DNA of 64,000 nt from an uncultured Treponema sp. (GTDB taxonomy: Bacteria; Spirochaetota; Spirochaetia; Treponematales; Treponemataceae): NCBI GenBank assembly GCA_946186185.1, contig CAMHMJ010000015.1:1-64000 (forward strand), written 5' to 3'. Below the pieces are notes generated by a model. That model was not told the origin of the DNA. It saw only the letters and a list, made by a program, of their open reading frames with translations, and ran no database searches. The translations under genes were made by a program, and so were the position numbers. Each line of letters starts with the position of its first letter. Within the stretch, counting starts at the first letter, position 1. Below, in pieces: positions 1,396-48,175 of this stretch.

Positions 1396-3462
1396 TTAAA
1401 AATTCCAGCAATCACAATTGATATGTTGAACTATAATGTGATAACTAACCTCTCTCAATCTTAATATCTCATTACAATGATGACAATAAAAATCTCCATT
1501 TTCTTTTTCTGTTAGAATTGAACAATTTTCTTTATCCGTAGTATGTAAATCTAAAATATGCTGTTTAATTGAATTTAAAGAAATTGGTTTTCCACATATG
1601 ACACATATTTGTTTATCATCAGAAATAATAGCATCATCTATTACAGTCTTAAAATCTGATCTTAAATATTCATTATCACATTTAATAATCCTAATATCTA
1701 TCAAATCATTATTTGCAATGTCAATTGATTTTGTTAAAATATCATCCGTTATTATCAAATCATATTTTTCTTCAAAATTATTTTTTAACTCTTTTATAGA
1801 AATTAGCAATCCAATTTTTTTTCTCAAAAAAGAAATTCTCAAATATTTCGCAACTTCCTCATTTAATCTATCTGTTTTTTCTTTATTAATAGTCAAAATA
1901 TAGCAATCTTTATCCTTATTTTTCTCTCTAAAGTCTAAACCTCTTTCATCTAAGTATTCTTTCAGACATCCATAATAAGCAATATATTTCTGTTCCTGAG
2001 GAGATTGAAAACAAACAGGTAAATTCAACATTTTATTTTCAATATCGTCATAAATATAAGTGTTTGAATATATAACAAGAGAACCATCATCTAAAAGTTT
2101 TATTATTAAATCACTATACTCCATTCTTTTATTTATAACATCTACTAAAATAGTTTTATAACAGTTTACAAAATCATCAAATCGGTATTCGGTTCTAAAT
2201 TTTTGACTAATTTTTTCTCTTATTTCCGAATATGAAATATACTTAAGCTCTGTTGTCGAAGATAATAATCTATAATAAAAATCTTCTAATTGTTTTTGTG
2301 AGATCCCAATAAAAAAACAATCATCAAATACATAAATTGAAATGTCTTGAAAATTATTAGTTAACCAGACATTTTTTATATAATCAAAATCTAAATTTAT
2401 ATTAAATTTTTTATAAAATTCGTCTCTGAATGATAGTTTTTTTATATACCTTTCTTTATGTGCTGCTAAAAAATCTTTTAAAAAAGAATTAACTTCATCT
2501 ACTGTAGGAATTTTAACGATAGTTTTAGTTAAATAATCAATTCTTTTATTCTGTTTTATCTTGTAATACAATGCATCAAAACTCAGTTTAAAATGAAATT
2601 TTCCTTCAAATAATTCATTTAATTTAGATATCGACATTATAGGACCTGTACCCGTTTCCGAGAACAATTCTTCAAAAAAAATAAATACTTCATCATCACT
2701 TGGAATTCGCCTATATATTTTAGTGTTTTTATCATAACGCAATAATTGAGAATCACTTAATATATTAATTATTTTATCATTTTCTAACTCATATTTGTAT
2801 TTCTGCTTTAGTAACAAATTAAATTCTCGAACCGTTTTTTCTTCGCAAAAATTCATATTATAAATAATGTCTTCAAAAAATACTTTTTCCTCATAAGGAT
2901 TTAAGTGTTTTATATGATTTAAAAATTTTGAGAAGTATGTTTTTTTTTGCAAAAAATGATCTAACTCAATATCTTCATAACCTTTGTTATTAAGAAACTT
3001 ACGAATATTATCCGTACTTATAATATTTCCTGGTAATATGCTATTAATACTATTCTCTATAGCAATGAATATATTTATATATAATCGATTAGGACTAAAA
3101 AAATCGCCTTTCTTTGCACCAAACATTTCACAGGCAATATCATTCGCAGTACGTCCAAAAATATCACGCTTTTCTAAATTTGCGCCTTTTAATACGAGCA
3201 ATTTGCCTACATTTTTTGAATTATTATATGCAGCCTGCATCAAGGCTGTTTCTCCATCATCATTTCTTATATCTAAATACGCACCTAATTCCAAAAGCTT
3301 TTTAGCAATTTTTTTGTCATCATTTTCTGTTGCATACATTAATGGTGTCCAACCAACAGAATCTTTTATATTTACATCTGCACCAGATTCAACAAGCCGT
3401 TGTATTTCACTTAAATTTGAAGTTTTTACTGCATGAAACAAATCCTCTTCTGACTTAGTCAT
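1396..3462 (-). CDS. Ankyrin-repeat protein with internal winged-helix-like repeats and C-terminal zinc fingers
   Basis: This 688-residue protein has three recognisable ankyrin repeats at about residues 1-112 (SGADVNIKDSVGWTPLMYA, GETALMQAAYNN). The middle holds about five copies of a 30-residue motif of the form S-[IF]-x-x-[LF]-x4-[FK]-x-x-K-[FY]-x4-L-x-x-D, for example SISKLNELFEGKFHFKLSFD and SIKELKNNFEEKYDL. Each copy is spaced by strand-like segments such as RRIPSDDEVFIFF and VKIPTVDEVNSFL, which suggests tandem helix-turn-helix or winged-helix units. The C-terminus has two Cys2-His2-like fingers at about residues 620-640 and 658-680. GAGGTGAGAT precedes the ATG. The gene is strikingly A/T-rich compared with its neighbours and sits near the integrase, so recent transfer is likely. 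Its function is unknown; binding nucleic acid and protein is plausible. Confidence 0.7.
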   Translation of the reverse strand: MTKSEEDLFHAVKTSNLSEIQRLVESGADVNIKDSVGWTPLMYATENDDKKIAKKLLELGAYLDIRNDDGETALMQAAYNNSKNVGKLLVLKGANLEKRDIFGRTANDIACEMFGAKKGDFFSPNRLYINIFIAIENSINSILPGNIISTDNIRKFLNNKGYEDIELDHFLQKKTYFSKFLNHIKHLNPYEEKVFFEDIIYNMNFCEEKTVREFNLLLKQKYKYELENDKIINILSDSQLLRYDKNTKIYRRIPSDDEVFIFFEELFSETGTGPIMSISKLNELFEGKFHFKLSFDALYYKIKQNKRIDYLTKTIVKIPTVDEVNSFLKDFLAAHKERYIKKLSFRDEFYKKFNINLDFDYIKNVWLTNNFQDISIYVFDDCFFIGISQKQLEDFYYRLLSSTTELKYISYSEIREKISQKFRTEYRFDDFVNCYKTILVDVINKRMEYSDLIIKLLDDGSLVIYSNTYIYDDIENKMLNLPVCFQSPQEQKYIAYYGCLKEYLDERGLDFREKNKDKDCYILTINKEKTDRLNEEVAKYLRISFLRKKIGLLISIKELKNNFEEKYDLIITDDILTKSIDIANNDLIDIRIIKCDNEYLRSDFKTVIDDAIISDDKQICVICGKPISLNSIKQHILDLHTTDKENCSILTEKENGDFYCHHCNEILRLREVSYHIIVQHINCDCWNF

Positions 3463-3528
3463 ATCTCACCTCTGATTTTGAAATTGTCCTACATATATTT
3501 TGATATGATACACTCTAGTTTAAAAAAC

Positions 3529-3819
3529 TCAATTCTTATTTAACCAGCAAAACCCTTTATCCCAAATTACTTTTGTTTCAGAAACATTCTTACCAATCTC
3601 TTTATTCCAATCCCAACCAGGATTTGCTTTTTTGTAGTAACCAAACTGGTTACCTGGCATATTATCTATAAATTCACCTTTATCTGTTGTAATAACCTGC
3701 ATTGGAGTATGCCATCCAGGATTTAACGATTCCCCTTTTACAACCTTTACATACAATATCTTAAATGTTGTTTCATTCTGATTTACAAAATAATTTACCT
3801 GATCATTCTTTCTAAGCAT
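3529..3819 (-). CDS. Hypothetical protein, 96 residues
   Basis: I do not recognise the family. The start at 3819 (MLRKNDQVNYF) is chosen because AAAAGGAGAGAGGT directly precedes it; an upstream in-frame Met has no such site. The protein is rich in Trp, Asn and Lys (NPGWHTPMQV, KKANPGWDWNKEIG) with two similar NPGW motifs, so a small beta-rich fold is likely. It has no signal peptide or membrane helix and follows the ankyrin gene's upstream side on the same strand. It probably belongs to the same accessory block. Confidence 0.55.
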   Translation of the reverse strand: MLRKNDQVNYFVNQNETTFKILYVKVVKGESLNPGWHTPMQVITTDKGEFIDNMPGNQFGYYKKANPGWDWNKEIGKNVSETKVIWDKGFCWLNKN

Positions 3820-41941: not shown

Positions 41942-44617
41942 TTAACTTTCGAGCTTCGACTGAATCTCCTTACAAATCGAAACAATCGTTTCAAACTCGA
42001 TGTCGTTGATTGCAACTTCAAGTTTCTGAACCAAAGGAAGCACCTCTTTTGGAGCGGACATAGACCGCAACGCTTCAAACTCATCTTCAACAAGAGGAAG
42101 GTCGCTTTTTTCAGAAGCGTAAATTATGTTTTCAATGTGAATTCCAAAGAGCTTTGCATTATCAACGCCCTTCTCCCCAGACTCGTCAAATTCAACCATG
42201 GCACGCAAATCCTTCATATAAGAAGTGTACAGCGCAATCATTGAAGTCGACCGTTCGTGAATATCTCTGCTGGTTCTCTTCATTTCGTCAGCGTCGCCTG
42301 CTTCAACGGCTTGTTGATACTTCTTTCCGAGGTCTTCAAGATTTTCAGCCTTCTTCGAAAGCTCCAGAGCACCGATAATTCGCGCCGCACTTTTAAGCGC
42401 ATGAACGTGAATCGTAAAATTCTTTATATCTTCCTTTATCAAGCAATCGCCGAGCATGTTCGAATTTCGTTCGATAGATAAATAGAAAGTTTTTGCGGTT
42501 TTCAGATAATTTTCTATACCGCCAGAATTTTTGACCGCGTCGACGAGAGCGAGCCTGTTTTCATCCCAAGAAGGAAAGCCGCTCGGAATAAGACCGTCAA
42601 AGTCATCTTCAACACCGAATTTTTCAAGAAGGTTGAGAGGAAGCCACTCCGCCAAACAAGAAGCAAAATCCTTTCCCTGAACCGGCTTTGCAATAAAATC
42701 GTCAAATCCTTTTGAAAGGAACATTTCCCGGGCTCCGTTTATGGCATTGGCACTGAGGGCAACCACAATCCTGTGCTTCTTTGCTTTTGAAGCAGGTCCC
42801 GGCGCCCCGGCAGGGTCATTCCGGTCACTAATTCTCTCGCCGTTATCATTGCATTCACTGGCTTCCGTTTCCATCACCCGGATTTTTTCCAGAGTTTCAA
42901 CCCCGTCCATTCCCGGCATCTGGTGATCCATAAAAATGATGTGGTAGTCGTTTTTCTGAATTAATTCCAGGGCTTCATAACCGCTTGTGGCAAGCTCCGG
43001 AACGACACCAAACTTTTTCAGAAGTCCCTGAGCAACCTGAAGGTTTACATCGCTGTCATCAACAACAAGAATTTTTGCCCTAGGCGCCTTGAACATTACG
43101 GTCTCAGATTTTTCCACAAACAGACTTGCAAACTCAGGGCGGTTCAAAAGTGAAACAACCGGAATTTCTGCAAGCTTTTGATTTTCCGGGCTGCGCTCCG
43201 CCGCGTCAAACAGCGCCTTGTATTTTTTTGAACAGCTTGTGGAATCCACAATTTTCTGCGGTAAATCGATATAGAAGCAGGAGCCTTTTCCGTATTCCGA
43301 GGTAACATATATGGAGCCGCCCATCAGCTTCATCAGGTTTTTAGAAATTGAAAGTCCCAGTCCCGTTCCGCCTTTGGTACGGTTCATTTTCATATCAACC
43401 TGCTGGAAAGCACCAAAAAGCCGGTTCAAATCCTCCTGGCGGATTCCAACCCCGGAATCAATCACGCTGATTCTAAGCCAGTCCAGTTCAGGTTCAGAAT
43501 TTTCAGGCAAAAGCCGGTCATCCATTTCCTTCAGTTTTTCCACCCTGATTTTTACAAAGCCCTTTTCCGTAAATTTTGCTGAATTTCCCGCAAGATTTAT
43601 CAAAATCTGCCTGATTCTCATATCGTCGCCGTGAAAAATGCAGGGCAGGTCTTCTTCAATTTCCAGAATCAGGTCAACGGGCTTATTTTTTAGCCGGACC
43701 AGGCACACATTGGAAATTTCGTTCAGCATTTTAACAAGGTCGTAATCCACAGGAATAATTTCCATTTTTCCGGACTCAATTTTTGAAAAATCCAGAATGT
43801 CGTTTATGATTCCAACCAGATTGATTCCGGAGGAACGTATCTGCTGAATCACGTTTTTTTCGCTGTCATTCAGGTTAAAGTCCAGGGCAAGCTCGCTCAT
43901 TCCCACAATGGCATTCATCGGCGTACGGATTTCGTGGCTCATATTCGCCAGAAACTGGGATTTCAGCTGGTTTTCATGCTCCGCCTGCTCATGCAGCTTT
44001 ATAATTTCAAGGGTTTTGTGAATGGAATCCTTCATCTGACTTGCCCGGACAAAGGAAACCGTATTGGTAATAAAAATAATAAAAATCGGGTACGGCGCGT
44101 AGGTATGATGTCCGGAAAAATGGGTCAAATGAGTAAAAAGCTCAAAGCCGATAAAAAGTGAAAGGGAAACCATAAGAACCAGCAGGGATTTCACGTAAAA
44201 AACACTGGAAACCAGCATCAGACAGATAAAGAACATTGTCAGGTTTTCACGGCCGCTGGAAATAGTTCCGGTAACCGCATCAAGGGTTCCGCAGATAAGA
44301 ATAATCACGGAGTACAACGCCAGATTAAACTGGAAAATCCTGTACCGCTCCTCAATTTTTTTGTTTGCCCAGGCAGTAATTCCCACCAGAAGGACTGAAA
44401 AAAAAGCCATAACGCTGTTCAAAATCACGTAGGCCCACTGAACATTGGAATAGGTTGAATCCTTGTGAAGCGCATCGTAGATCAGAAGAAAAAGCTCGAA
44501 TGCCGCAATTATGGTTACATAGCTGAACACACGGCGGCAGTCAACGGCCGTACATTCAAGCTTGTATTTTTTTTCTTCATCCTTGTTTTCAAAATGAAGG
44601 CAGAAGGGATTTTTCAT
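41942..44617 (-). CDS. Hybrid sensor histidine kinase with receiver and Hpt domains
   Basis: The 891-residue protein is a complete phosphorelay in one chain. Six hydrophobic segments at about residues 28-190 form the sensor. HisKA follows with [20 protein letters not shown] (phospho-accepting His), then the ATPase with [20 protein letters not shown]. The receiver is [18 protein letters not shown] with the phospho-Asp in [13 protein letters not shown]. The Hpt domain has [14 protein letters not shown]. The output regulator is not nearby and the signal is unknown. A low-complexity insert ([20 protein letters not shown]) lies within the receiver. It is transcribed divergently from the ABC importer genes. 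Confidence 0.93.
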
Positions 44618-44719: not shown

Positions 44720-44740
44720 GAACTTTCATAGGAGTTGAAA

Positions 44741-45511
44741 ATGAAGAAAAGCATTGGAATTTTTATTGCCGCTCTGGCACTTGTATCTGCCGGCTGTTCA
44801 AAAAAAGCACAGGTAGAAATCAATTCAGCAGCAGATCTTGCTGGTAAAGTTGTAGGCTGCCAGGCTGGAACTACCGGAGAAATGTACGTTCAGGACGAAT
44901 CCGGCGCAAAATCAATCAAATCTTTTAAGACTGGAATCGACGCTGCCCTCGCCCTCAAAAATGGTGCAATCGACGCAGTTGTTCTTGATGAACTTCCTGC
45001 AAAAGAAATCGTAAAAAGAAACCCAGACCTTACAATCGTAAACGACCAGTTTGCCGCTGAAGAATATGCAATCGCCGTAAAGAAGGGAAACTCAGAACTT
45101 CTTGACTCAGTAAACAAGACAATTGCAAAAATCAAGGCTGAAGGAACCTACGAAAAGCTCATCGAAGCATTCATGCCTGTTGACGGAAAAATCAACATTC
45201 CTGAAGTTGAACTCATCGACTCAAAGGAAGTTGTAAAAATGGGAACAAACGCAGCTTTCCCTCCATTTGAATATGTTGAAGGTTCAGAAGTTGTTGGTTT
45301 CGATGCAACAATGAGCCGCATGATTGCCCGCGACTATGGAAAGAAGCTTCAGATCATCGACATGAGCTTTGACGGTCTTATCGCTGCATTGCAGGCTGGT
45401 TCAATCGACTTCATCGCTGCCGGCATGACTGCAACAGACGAAAGAAGACAGAATGTTGATTTCTCTGAACCATATTACAAGACAAATCAGGTAATCGTAA
45501 TCAGAAAATAA
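44741..45511 (+). CDS. Amino-acid ABC transporter binding lipoprotein with circularly permuted lobes
   Basis: The 256-residue lipoprotein (lipobox cysteine 19 in LVSAGCS) belongs to solute-binding family 3, but its order is reversed. Residues of about 30-155 are the segment normally in the second half (ADLAGKVVGCQAGTTGEMYV, DAVVLDELPAKEIV, EEYAIAVKKGNSELLDSVNK). Residues of about 165-256 are the segment normally at the N-terminus (MGTNAAFPPFEYVEG, FDGLIAALQAGSIDFIAAGM, VDFSEPYYKTNQVIVIRK). All family motifs are present, so it is a circular permutation rather than a fragment. It should capture a polar amino acid for the permease 79 bases downstream. The ATG at 44741 follows AGGAGTTGAAA. Confidence 0.9.
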   Translation: MKKSIGIFIAALALVSAGCSKKAQVEINSAADLAGKVVGCQAGTTGEMYVQDESGAKSIKSFKTGIDAALALKNGAIDAVVLDELPAKEIVKRNPDLTIVNDQFAAEEYAIAVKKGNSELLDSVNKTIAKIKAEGTYEKLIEAFMPVDGKINIPEVELIDSKEVVKMGTNAAFPPFEYVEGSEVVGFDATMSRMIARDYGKKLQIIDMSFDGLIAALQAGSIDFIAAGMTATDERRQNVDFSEPYYKTNQVIVIRK

Positions 45512-45590
45512 ATGTTTTATCCGCGCCAAAACGCTGAAAAAAACAGACTGCAGATGCAGCTGGTGGCGCGGAAATTAAAAAGGTGTGAAT
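45512..45590 (+). promoter_or_regulatory. Intercistronic hairpin between binding protein and permease
   Basis: CCGCGCCA (about 45520-45527) pairs with TGGCGCGG (about 45563-45571) around a loop containing CTGCAGATGCAG. There is no T run, so it is more likely an mRNA stabiliser or processing site than a terminator. It would help make more binding protein than permease. Confidence 0.5.
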
Positions 45591-46259
45591 ATGTGGAACA
45601 GTTTTTACAACACAATGATTGCAAAAGGAAGATGGCTTCTTATTCCTCAGGGACTTGGAACTACACTTCTTATCGCCGTGTGCGCTGTACTCATTGGTTC
45701 AATTCTGGGCTGCATTTTCGCACTTTTTAAGATTTCAAAAAGCCGGGTTCTCAAGACAATTGCCGAAATTTACACAACTGTAATCCGCGGTGTTCCAATG
45801 GCAACCCAGCTTATGATTTTCTACTTTGTAGTTTTTTCCCCGATGGGAATGACAAACGCCGTTCTTGTTGCTATCATCGCCTTCGGAATTAACTCCGGTG
45901 CCTACTGTACGGAGATTTTCCGCGCCGGCATTCAGGGCGTAGACAAGGGTCAGAACGAAGCCGGCCGCTCACTGGGACTTTCCTGGTCACAGACCTTAAT
46001 CAAAATCATTCTTCCCCAGGCCATAAGAACATCTCTACCTACCTACACCAGCGAATTCATCACACTTATCAAGGAAACCTCAGTTGCAAGTTTTATCGCC
46101 GTTGTTGATTTGCAGAAAGCCTGCGACAACATCCGCAACGCAACCTACAACGCCTGGATTCCGCTTTTATCCTGCGCAGTAATCTACCTGTGCCTTACAC
46201 TGGGACTTACAAAGCTTTTTGCAAGACTGGAAAAACGCTTTATAAAGGCCGATAGATAG
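45591..46259 (+). CDS. Amino-acid ABC transporter permease (HisM/GlnP type)
   Basis: The 222-residue inner-membrane protein has about five membrane helices and the conserved EAA loop EAGRSLGLSWSQTLIKIILPQA, then SEFITLIKETSVASFIAVVDL. Substrate-gate features typical of the HisMQ group are present (TVIRGVPMATQLMIFYF). AAAGGTGTGAAT precedes the ATG at 45591. It forms the importer with the preceding binding lipoprotein. No ATP-binding subunit gene follows: the operon ends at the terminator, and argS is on the other strand. The ATPase must be encoded elsewhere. Confidence 0.93.
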   Translation: MWNSFYNTMIAKGRWLLIPQGLGTTLLIAVCAVLIGSILGCIFALFKISKSRVLKTIAEIYTTVIRGVPMATQLMIFYFVVFSPMGMTNAVLVAIIAFGINSGAYCTEIFRAGIQGVDKGQNEAGRSLGLSWSQTLIKIILPQAIRTSLPTYTSEFITLIKETSVASFIAVVDLQKACDNIRNATYNAWIPLLSCAVIYLCLTLGLTKLFARLEKRFIKADR

Positions 46260-46260
46260 T

Positions 46261-46300
46261 TTTTTTGCCCGCATTTCGCTACCCTACCGCCAATTTTTTT
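46261..46300. repeat. Left-end fragment of repeat R2 (inverted)
   Basis: The reverse complement, AAAAAAATTGGCGGTAGGGT followed by AGCGAAATGCGGGC and an A run, matches the left end of the R2 element at 15852 with a single mismatch. It begins directly after the permease stop codon. Confidence 0.65.
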
Positions 46301-46356
46301 ACTCCTTCTGCTAATGCGGAAAGAGTGCTTGCAAGAATGTTTCGGCTTCAGAAAAA

Positions 46357-46384
46357 AAACTGGCTCCCGCTGAGAGCCAGTTTT
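46357..46384. terminator. Bidirectional terminator derived from repeat R1
   Basis: AAAACTGGCTC pairs with GAG(A)GCCAGTTTT around CCGCT, with flanking A and T runs. The segment CCCGCTGAGAGCCAGTTTT is identical to the complement of the R1 left end, so this looks like an R1 element reduced to one end. It separates the convergent permease and argS genes. Confidence 0.7.
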
Positions 46385-46414
46385 GAATGAACTAATAAAA
46401 CTTGAAATTTAAAC

Positions 46415-48175
46415 TTACATCTTTTCTATAACGCTTACGCCGAGCACGTACATTCCCTTTGCGAGAACCTTTGCAACCAGGGCGGAAAGTGCAAGGCGGG
46501 ATTCAAGAATGTTCTGGTCCGGTTCAGAAAGAACTGGATTTCTTTCGTAGAAGGCGTGATAGCTGGAAGCCAGATCGTACAGATATGTACAGATTCTGTG
46601 TGGCTCATATGCTTTGGCCGCCTGAAGAATCACCTGAGACAATGCCATACATTTTTTTGCAAGACGCATTTCATCATCGTTGGAAAGAAGGTGGAATACC
46701 GGCTTCTTTCCCTGTCCTTCACCCTTTGCAACCAGGGCGCGGCAGCGAACATAAGCATTCTGAATGTATGGAGCAGTATTTCCGTCAAAGGCAAGCATTC
46801 GTTCCCAGTTAAAAACGTAATCCTTGATTCGGTCGCAGGAAAGGTCTGCATACTTGATTGCACTGATACCGATATCGTGGCTGAGCTGCTTTAAACTTTC
46901 GCCGCTTGCTTCAGGATTTTTTGCAAGAATAATTTCCTTTGCACGCTCTTCTGCTTCATCCAGAAGGCTTGAAAGGGTAACGGTTTCACCGCTTCGTGTT
47001 TTAAAAGGCTTTCCGTCCTGTCCAAGAACCGAACCGAAGGAAACGTGTGTAAGCTCTACGCTGTCATCACAAAGCTGAACATCCCGGGCAGCCTGGAAAA
47101 GCATGGAAAAGTGCATTTTCTGGCGTGTATCCGTAACATACACGATTTTCTTTGCATTCAGAGTGTGAGCACGATACTCAAGGGCTGTAACATCGGTTGC
47201 GTCGTAGCCAAAACCACCGTCACTCTTCTTCAGGATAAGAGGTACCGGTTCCCCGTCCCGTCCCTGGAAGCCCGTCGGAAAAAGACAAACGGCACCGTTA
47301 CTTATCTTTGCCTTTCCTTCCTCAAGAAGCTTGTCTGCAACTGCATTCAATTTGTCGTTGTAAAAGCTTTCGCCGCAGTAGTCGCCGTCATTCAAAAGAA
47401 CGCCCATGCGCTGGTACATCCAGCCAAAATGCTTTTTAGATTCATCTGTCAGGGCCTTCCACAAATCGATGGATTCCTGGTCGCCGCTCTGGATTTTTAC
47501 AACCCGCTGGTGGCTTCTTTCCGCAAAATCCGGGTCAGAATCGAATTTCACCTTTGATTCCTTGTAAAGCGCATTCAGGTCGCTGATTGTGTGTTCAGTC
47601 GAATCCTTCCAGCCGGTGTCGATAAGGTGTTCAATCAGCATTCCAAACTGAGTTCCCCAGTCACCGATATGGTTCTGGCGCAGAACATCGTAACCCAAAA
47701 GGTCGTACATTCGGACAATTGAGTCACCGATAATGGTTGAACGAAGGTGACCAACGTGCATTTCCTTTGCGATATTAGGTGAAGAATAGTCTACGATGAT
47801 TTTTTCCCCTGCACCAACATTCGGAATGCCGAGTTTTTCATCGGAATCAGCTTCCTTGATTTTTGAACAGAGATAATCCTTTGAAATAAAAAAGTTAATG
47901 AAGCCCGGCTTTAAAACTTCCATTTTAGTAAGAAGGTTGCCCTCATTCCGTGAATCAAGAGCCGCCTGAATTGAAGCCTGAACAGCTCCGGCAATCTCCA
48001 TAGGAGCCTTGTGAAGCAATTTTGAAAGTGAAAACGAAACATTCGACTGATAGTCGCCAAAATTTTCATTGTTCGTTTCAGTTACATATTCTTTTGAAGA
48101 GTCCAAATCCGTGCCGAAAGCAGCCTTTACTCCGGCAATTACGATTTCGTTTAAATCCTGAATAATTGTTTTCAT
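46415..48175 (-). CDS. argS: Arginyl-tRNA synthetase
   Basis: This class I synthetase charges tRNA-Arg. With the start at 48175 it has 586 residues, a normal length. The N-terminal Add-1-like domain is followed by SSPNIAKEMHVGHLRSTIIG (the HIGH motif is HVGH), RQNHIGDWGTQFGMLIEHL and the KMSK-region equivalent FGSVLGQDGKPFKTRSGETV. The C-terminal anticodon domain ends with ALSALVAKVLAKGMYVLGV. No clear Shine-Dalgarno sequence exists. An extended -10 (TGC TACAAT) ends six bases before the ATG, suggesting a leaderless mRNA. It is divergent from ybaK. Confidence 0.96.
   Translation of the reverse strand: MKTIIQDLNEIVIAGVKAAFGTDLDSSKEYVTETNNENFGDYQSNVSFSLSKLLHKAPMEIAGAVQASIQAALDSRNEGNLLTKMEVLKPGFINFFISKDYLCSKIKEADSDEKLGIPNVGAGEKIIVDYSSPNIAKEMHVGHLRSTIIGDSIVRMYDLLGYDVLRQNHIGDWGTQFGMLIEHLIDTGWKDSTEHTISDLNALYKESKVKFDSDPDFAERSHQRVVKIQSGDQESIDLWKALTDESKKHFGWMYQRMGVLLNDGDYCGESFYNDKLNAVADKLLEEGKAKISNGAVCLFPTGFQGRDGEPVPLILKKSDGGFGYDATDVTALEYRAHTLNAKKIVYVTDTRQKMHFSMLFQAARDVQLCDDSVELTHVSFGSVLGQDGKPFKTRSGETVTLSSLLDEAEERAKEIILAKNPEASGESLKQLSHDIGISAIKYADLSCDRIKDYVFNWERMLAFDGNTAPYIQNAYVRCRALVAKGEGQGKKPVFHLLSNDDEMRLAKKCMALSQVILQAAKAYEPHRICTYLYDLASSYHAFYERNPVLSEPDQNILESRLALSALVAKVLAKGMYVLGVSVIEKM

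Follow-up and report, generated by a model that had tools for sequence, protein, structure and literature searches.

The open reading frame (ORF) at 44741–45511 (+) of the window, the whole 64,000-nucleotide stretch of uncultured Treponema DNA that was analyzed, encodes 256 residues plus a stop codon from the ATG at 44741 (an alternative start might be the TTG at 44735). A signal peptide with the lipobox VSAG-C, predicted by eye, occupies 44741–44797 (+) and would place the lipidated cysteine at Cys19. It is followed by lobe 2 (residues 25–105; 44813–45055, +), a lobe that comes second in standard family 3 proteins and here carries AGTTGE and LDEL, by the second hinge strand EEYAIAVKKGN (residues 107–117; 45059–45091, +), and by the C-terminal helices of the standard fold (residues 118–144; 45092–45172, +), which pack on lobe 1. 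A 19-residue linker, MPVDGKINIPEVELIDSKE (residues 145–163; 45173–45229, +), connects the former C-terminus with the former N-terminus. Lobe 1 (residues 164–245; 45230–45475, +), the first lobe in standard proteins, contains MGTNAAFPPFEY and TDERRQNVDFSEPYY, and the first hinge strand YKTNQVIVIRK (residues 246–256; 45476–45508, +) now forms the free C-terminus. The lobes, the helices, and the hinge strands were assigned from sequence matches and the predicted model, and the hinge role of EEYAIAVKKGN is taken from knowledge of the family.

The gene directly downstream, at 45585–46259 (+), is a conserved neighbor and encodes the cognate permease, a member of the polar amino acid family, as judged from profile matches (PF00528, and TIGR01726 of the His/Glu/Gln/Arg family with a score over its cut-off). 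No ATPase gene was found beside the permease gene (46260–46415), and the next gene is argS on the other strand. Directly upstream, a divergent gene at 41942–44617 (–) encodes a hybrid histidine kinase of 891 residues, which is not conserved at this position in the relatives checked.

Residues 21–144 of the binding protein match the second half, and residues 158–256 the first half, of family 3 proteins of known structure. For AncQR (4zv1), window residues 21–144 aligned on chain residues 103–230 (84.4 bits) and residues 164–256 on chain residues 11–104 (86.9 bits). The family profile PF00497 also matched in two stretches (123.8 bits, compared to the curated cut-off of 26.4; protein E-value 5e-36), and its standard order of lobe 1, lobe 2, and C-terminal helices was found reversed. 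With a test profile built from standard-order proteins of other groups only, the native chain gave two swapped matches (142.5 and 120.9 bits), in which the second half of the profile (hmm 98–225) lay at the N-terminal end and the first half (hmm 2–98) at the C-terminal end. When the chain was instead rotated at any cut within residues 147–162, a single full-length alignment (hmm 2–225) of 276.1 bits was restored. The profile and rotation scores thus exclude chance as the source of the swapped halves. These results indicate that the window protein is a permuted, not a standard, member of SBP_bac_3 (PF00497). The initial annotation had proposed, from the motifs, a lipoprotein that begins with the second half of a family 3 protein and ends with the first half; the swapped matches and the rotation that it suggested both agree with this proposal, and the motifs that it quoted are present, with residue numbers right within a position or two.

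The AlphaFold2 model of the native order, computed from an alignment of 42 permuted relatives, had a mean pLDDT of 91.3 and a pTM of 0.83, so that no preference of the fold for the standard order emerged. The model of a standard-order orthologue from the same genus (L046) had a pLDDT of 88.0 and a pTM of 0.78. Using a structural aligner that keeps chain order, residues 25–146 of the permuted model were superimposed on residues 99–222 of glutamine-binding protein (Z 13.6, 122 residues, 1.4 Å), and residues 160–251 matched residues 6–98 of ArgBP domain 1. The L046 model could be aligned over its full length with family 3 proteins of solved structure (Z 32.1, 217 residues, 1.4 Å). Order-keeping alignment of the permuted model to solved structures yielded no full-length match with low rmsd, the best being to OpuAC of Bacillus subtilis (202–207 residues, 4.6–5.0 Å, 12–13% identity). 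The confident models of each order, together with the matches of the individual permuted lobes to solved structures, predict the same fold in both orders. The window gene thus represents a genuine and widespread circular permutation, in which the whole bilobal fold is predicted to be kept.

Family 3 binding proteins have two hinge strands, through which they close on an amino acid in the manner of a trap. In the window protein, EEYAIAVKKGN (residues 107–117) is the only hinge strand joined through the chain to both lobes. The permutation point would correspond to the first hinge crossover of the chain, such that one hinge strand (107–117) would span both lobes and the other (246–256) would end as a free C-terminus. 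Lobe 2 with the C-terminal helices would be synthesized first, followed by the linker of ~19 residues, lobe 1, and the first hinge strand, and the anchored N-terminus would exit at the lobe-2 side of the hinge, not from lobe 1. The product is predicted to be a two-lobed trap as in the standard proteins, which would deliver an amino acid to the permease encoded by the adjacent gene. New termini and a moved lipid anchor had been claimed from the sequence; both were found, with the termini at the hinge. The change in presentation to the permease that had also been proposed stays hypothetical. The weight given to the anchor was too strong, since a cysteine at the lipobox position was present in 102 of the 120 permuted ORFs and ~18 of them had no lipobox-like cysteine near the N-terminus. 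An anchor-driven reason for the permutation is likewise unsupported as a general cause, because some permuted proteins have no lipobox cysteine.

Among 43 aligned permuted proteins, 39 columns were invariant, including R235 (TDER), T45 (GTTG), and D83 (LDEL), which belong to the ligand site as it is known for the family. The ligand-site motifs of PF00497 (Arg of TxER, GTTG, and Asp of LDEL) are all present in the window protein. The permease gene was downstream in most loci, adjoining both permuted and standard-order binding proteins, and an ATPase gene was found in many to most. No permease gene was found alongside the divergent permuted proteins L055, L056, L057, L058, and L119. With no ATPase gene beside the permease gene in the window operon, the importer must obtain its ATPase from another locus, such as a candidate gene of the same genome (C3:106856-107572), whose product is 63% identical to the ATPase in the operon of a relative. 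These results strongly suggest that the gene encodes the circularly permuted, lipid-anchored binding protein of an ABC importer for polar amino acids.

In the search of genomes of the genus, a match was found in 146 of 196 genomes, and most matches spanned the query from end to end without a break, as is possible only for the permuted order. The ORFs of 118 permuted relatives were read, which belong to the window genus, to eight sister genera, and to three additional families (f9, f18, and f31); two remote permuted ORFs (L168 and L169) bring the total to 120. The Treponema genome search proposed with the initial annotation therefore revealed same-order orthologues in many genomes. Two proteins of family f31 (L163 and L164) are permuted and ~75% identical per lobe, in a genome of a distant family, reflecting a recent transfer or a binning error. 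Separately, ORFs of ~1000 residues with several tandem family 3 domains (G023:C43:11-2125 and similar), which probably encode sensor proteins, matched the query across the domain junctions. Neither tandem intermediates nor ORFs with repeated lobes were found among the fetched loci, and the route of duplication and trimming that had been proposed for the swap is thus not borne out by the ORFs read.

Many genomes in the set are fragmented, and the swapped halves might in principle stem from rearrangement of a contig or from a pair of genes that were truncated or fused. In the 118 relatives, however, the signal peptide, the linker, and the stop codon lie in one continuous ORF, several of the permuted ORFs are on contigs of 2–3 Mb (G119, G132, G145, and G077), and some of the contigs are complete. 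In addition, the comparison of the window gene with its nearest relative (dN 0.063, dS 0.986) demonstrates strong purifying selection. With both halves in one intact, selected ORF, an assembly or annotation artefact is extremely improbable, and both an artefact and a pseudogene were rejected. The same selection, the invariant site residues, and the permease gene, directly downstream here and in most loci, also argue against a decayed or repurposed protein that serves as a sensor or scaffold and no longer takes part in transport. Such a role would fit the five divergent proteins without an adjoining permease and the lack of an adjacent ATPase gene in the window operon, and is considered unlikely for the permuted form.

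A standard-order orthologue, overlooked by the initial annotation, was found in 15 genomes of the window genus (L040–L053 and L139). Their identity with the window protein is 72–80% in lobe 1 and 62–69% in lobe 2, and the orthologous permease adjoins nearly all of them. The standard-order form was confined to this one genus, whereas the permuted form occurred in at least eight sister genera. The standard-order clade carries a C-terminal tail of 12–13 residues with the motif [FY]MPxDGxI. The permuted linker, whose length is near-constant across the permuted proteins, has the same motif and a mean length of 13 residues by the same count, whereas most outgroup proteins stop 0–4 residues past the helix. 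The tail of the basal standard-order protein L040 (EIRIPVIEGLE) also resembles the linker of the permuted L065 (EITIPVIEAIG). Judged from these sequences, the linker of the permuted proteins and the tail of the standard-order orthologues are homologous.

The standard-order genomes occupied four places in the RpoB tree, indicating that transfer of the gene from species to species has taken place as well. Three of these genomes (G098, G055, and G135) adjoin the species group of the window itself. In a synteny comparison aimed at allelic replacement, the flanking genes showed no conservation beyond the nearest relative. In one standard-order protein (L045; G172, 2983–3756, –), lobe 2 and the permease group with those of the permuted L062, and lobe 1 groups with the standard-order clade; this protein may be a mosaic or may reflect a second event or reversal.

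For the trees, the lobes were put in a common order and outgroup rooting was used. Two remote outgroups with excessively long branches (L004 and L075) were replaced, and later trees combined closer outgroups with a mixture model. In the outgroup-rooted trees, the standard-order clade was nested inside the permuted proteins of the genus. The binding-protein tree contained a clade of standard-order and permuted proteins with a support of 96/95. In the concatenated tree of the binding protein, permease, and ATPase, a clade of the standard-order proteins with 18 permuted ones had a support of 96/100, with all outgroups outside. The permuted proteins did not form a single clade in any bootstrap tree. 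Least-variance rooting avoided the standard-order branch, and the best root in the non-reversible rooting was on a tip. The trees, the least-variance rooting, and the distribution thus favor the permuted form as the earlier one, with which the seam between tail and linker agrees, although the seam alone fits either direction. These results suggest that the standard-order orthologues of the genus probably descend from the permuted form. The reading that we prefer, and hold to be moderately probable, is that one permutation occurred before the sister genera split and was later undone in a lineage of the window genus, leaving the linker as the C-terminal tail.

Alternatively, the standard order in the 15 genomes might be ancestral, with a single permutation inside the genus that made its linker from a pre-existing tail and then spread by transfer to the sister genera and other families. 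In AU tests, the monophyly of the permuted proteins was not rejected (p = 0.34, 0.36, 0.21, and 0.40), some outgroups share residues such as FDGL and GMT with the standard-order clade, and transfer clearly occurs, as shown by the four RpoB places and by L163 and L164 of the distant family. On the other hand, this history does not fit well with the nesting of the standard-order clade in the permuted clade of the outgroup-rooted trees, with the restriction of the standard order to one genus compared to at least eight sister genera for the permuted order, or with the outgroup proteins, which have no tail. It is therefore regarded as possible but doubtful, and an earlier permuted form remains the favored order of events. 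A tree with the permuted proteins as a single clade is compatible with the AU tests, and the direction given for the second switch is accordingly tentative.

The two remote permuted proteins from another spirochaete family (L168 and L169) are 35–40% identical. Their chains start ~12 residues deeper into lobe 2, and the helix with which this lobe normally opens (TFQSCKTASDVLAALK) lies at their C-terminal end. In the tree they group, on long branches, with a standard-order protein (95/94; AU p = 0.28). Their shifted breakpoint and placement point perhaps to an independent permutation. The chances are about even that both events took place, a permutation undone in one Treponema lineage and a second, independent one with a shifted breakpoint in L168 and L169.

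Circularly permuted binding proteins are already known as a kind. TpMglB-2 (Tp0684) of T. pallidum is a circularly permuted glucose-binding lipoprotein that binds glucose and changes its conformation, and a possible benefit of this kind of topology for membrane anchoring was proposed in the same study (PMC4990184). Like the window protein, it is a natural circular permutant of a treponemal ABC binding lipoprotein in which the bilobal fold is kept, and since it still binds its ligand and changes conformation, a working trap would also be expected in the window protein. TpMglB-2 is, however, a Type I (cluster B) sugar protein, in which strands were moved within the N lobe, a fourth hinge crossover is present, and identity in the permuted part is 13%. 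In contrast, the window protein belongs to family 3 by sequence and structure, not to the TpMglB-2 type (cluster Bc); whole lobes are exchanged, one hinge strand is cut, and near-identical sequence occurs in both orders within a genus. The glycine-betaine-binding proteins OpuAC and ProX are circular permutants by structure (PMC2395249). Both are Type II binding proteins, and OpuAC aligns in order with the window model, but they belong to another substrate family and their permutation is old and visible by structure only, not between close orthologues.

The standard family 3 proteins GlnBP, ArgBP, AncQR, ArtJ, and LAO share both lobes and the site motifs with the window protein, and differ in the order of the halves and in the place of the termini; the extra linker is the window protein's. 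The best sequence match was the SBD1-SBD2 tandem of GlnPQ (6h30), with window residues 26–253 on chain residues 101–327, because the tandem junction reads lobe 2 and then lobe 1. The tandem comprises two complete domains, whereas the window protein has one copy of each half. By analogy, the permutation could have been cut from an intermediate similar to the GlnPQ tandem. A literature search that lay mostly outside the subscription journals found no paper that describes permuted family 3 binding proteins or the reversal of a permutation.

Natural circular permutants usually come to light when distantly related proteins are compared, and the comparison is then confounded by numerous other differences. 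The most valuable aspect of the present case is the occurrence of both layouts between close orthologues, in one genus and beside equivalent permeases. The effects of a cut hinge strand on folding, opening and closing, affinity, and docking would thereby become directly testable, and how a chain order flips, and whether the flip can reverse, could also be addressed. Alongside that of TpMglB-2, the permutation described here would be a second such event among the binding proteins of treponemes, and would affect a different fold class.
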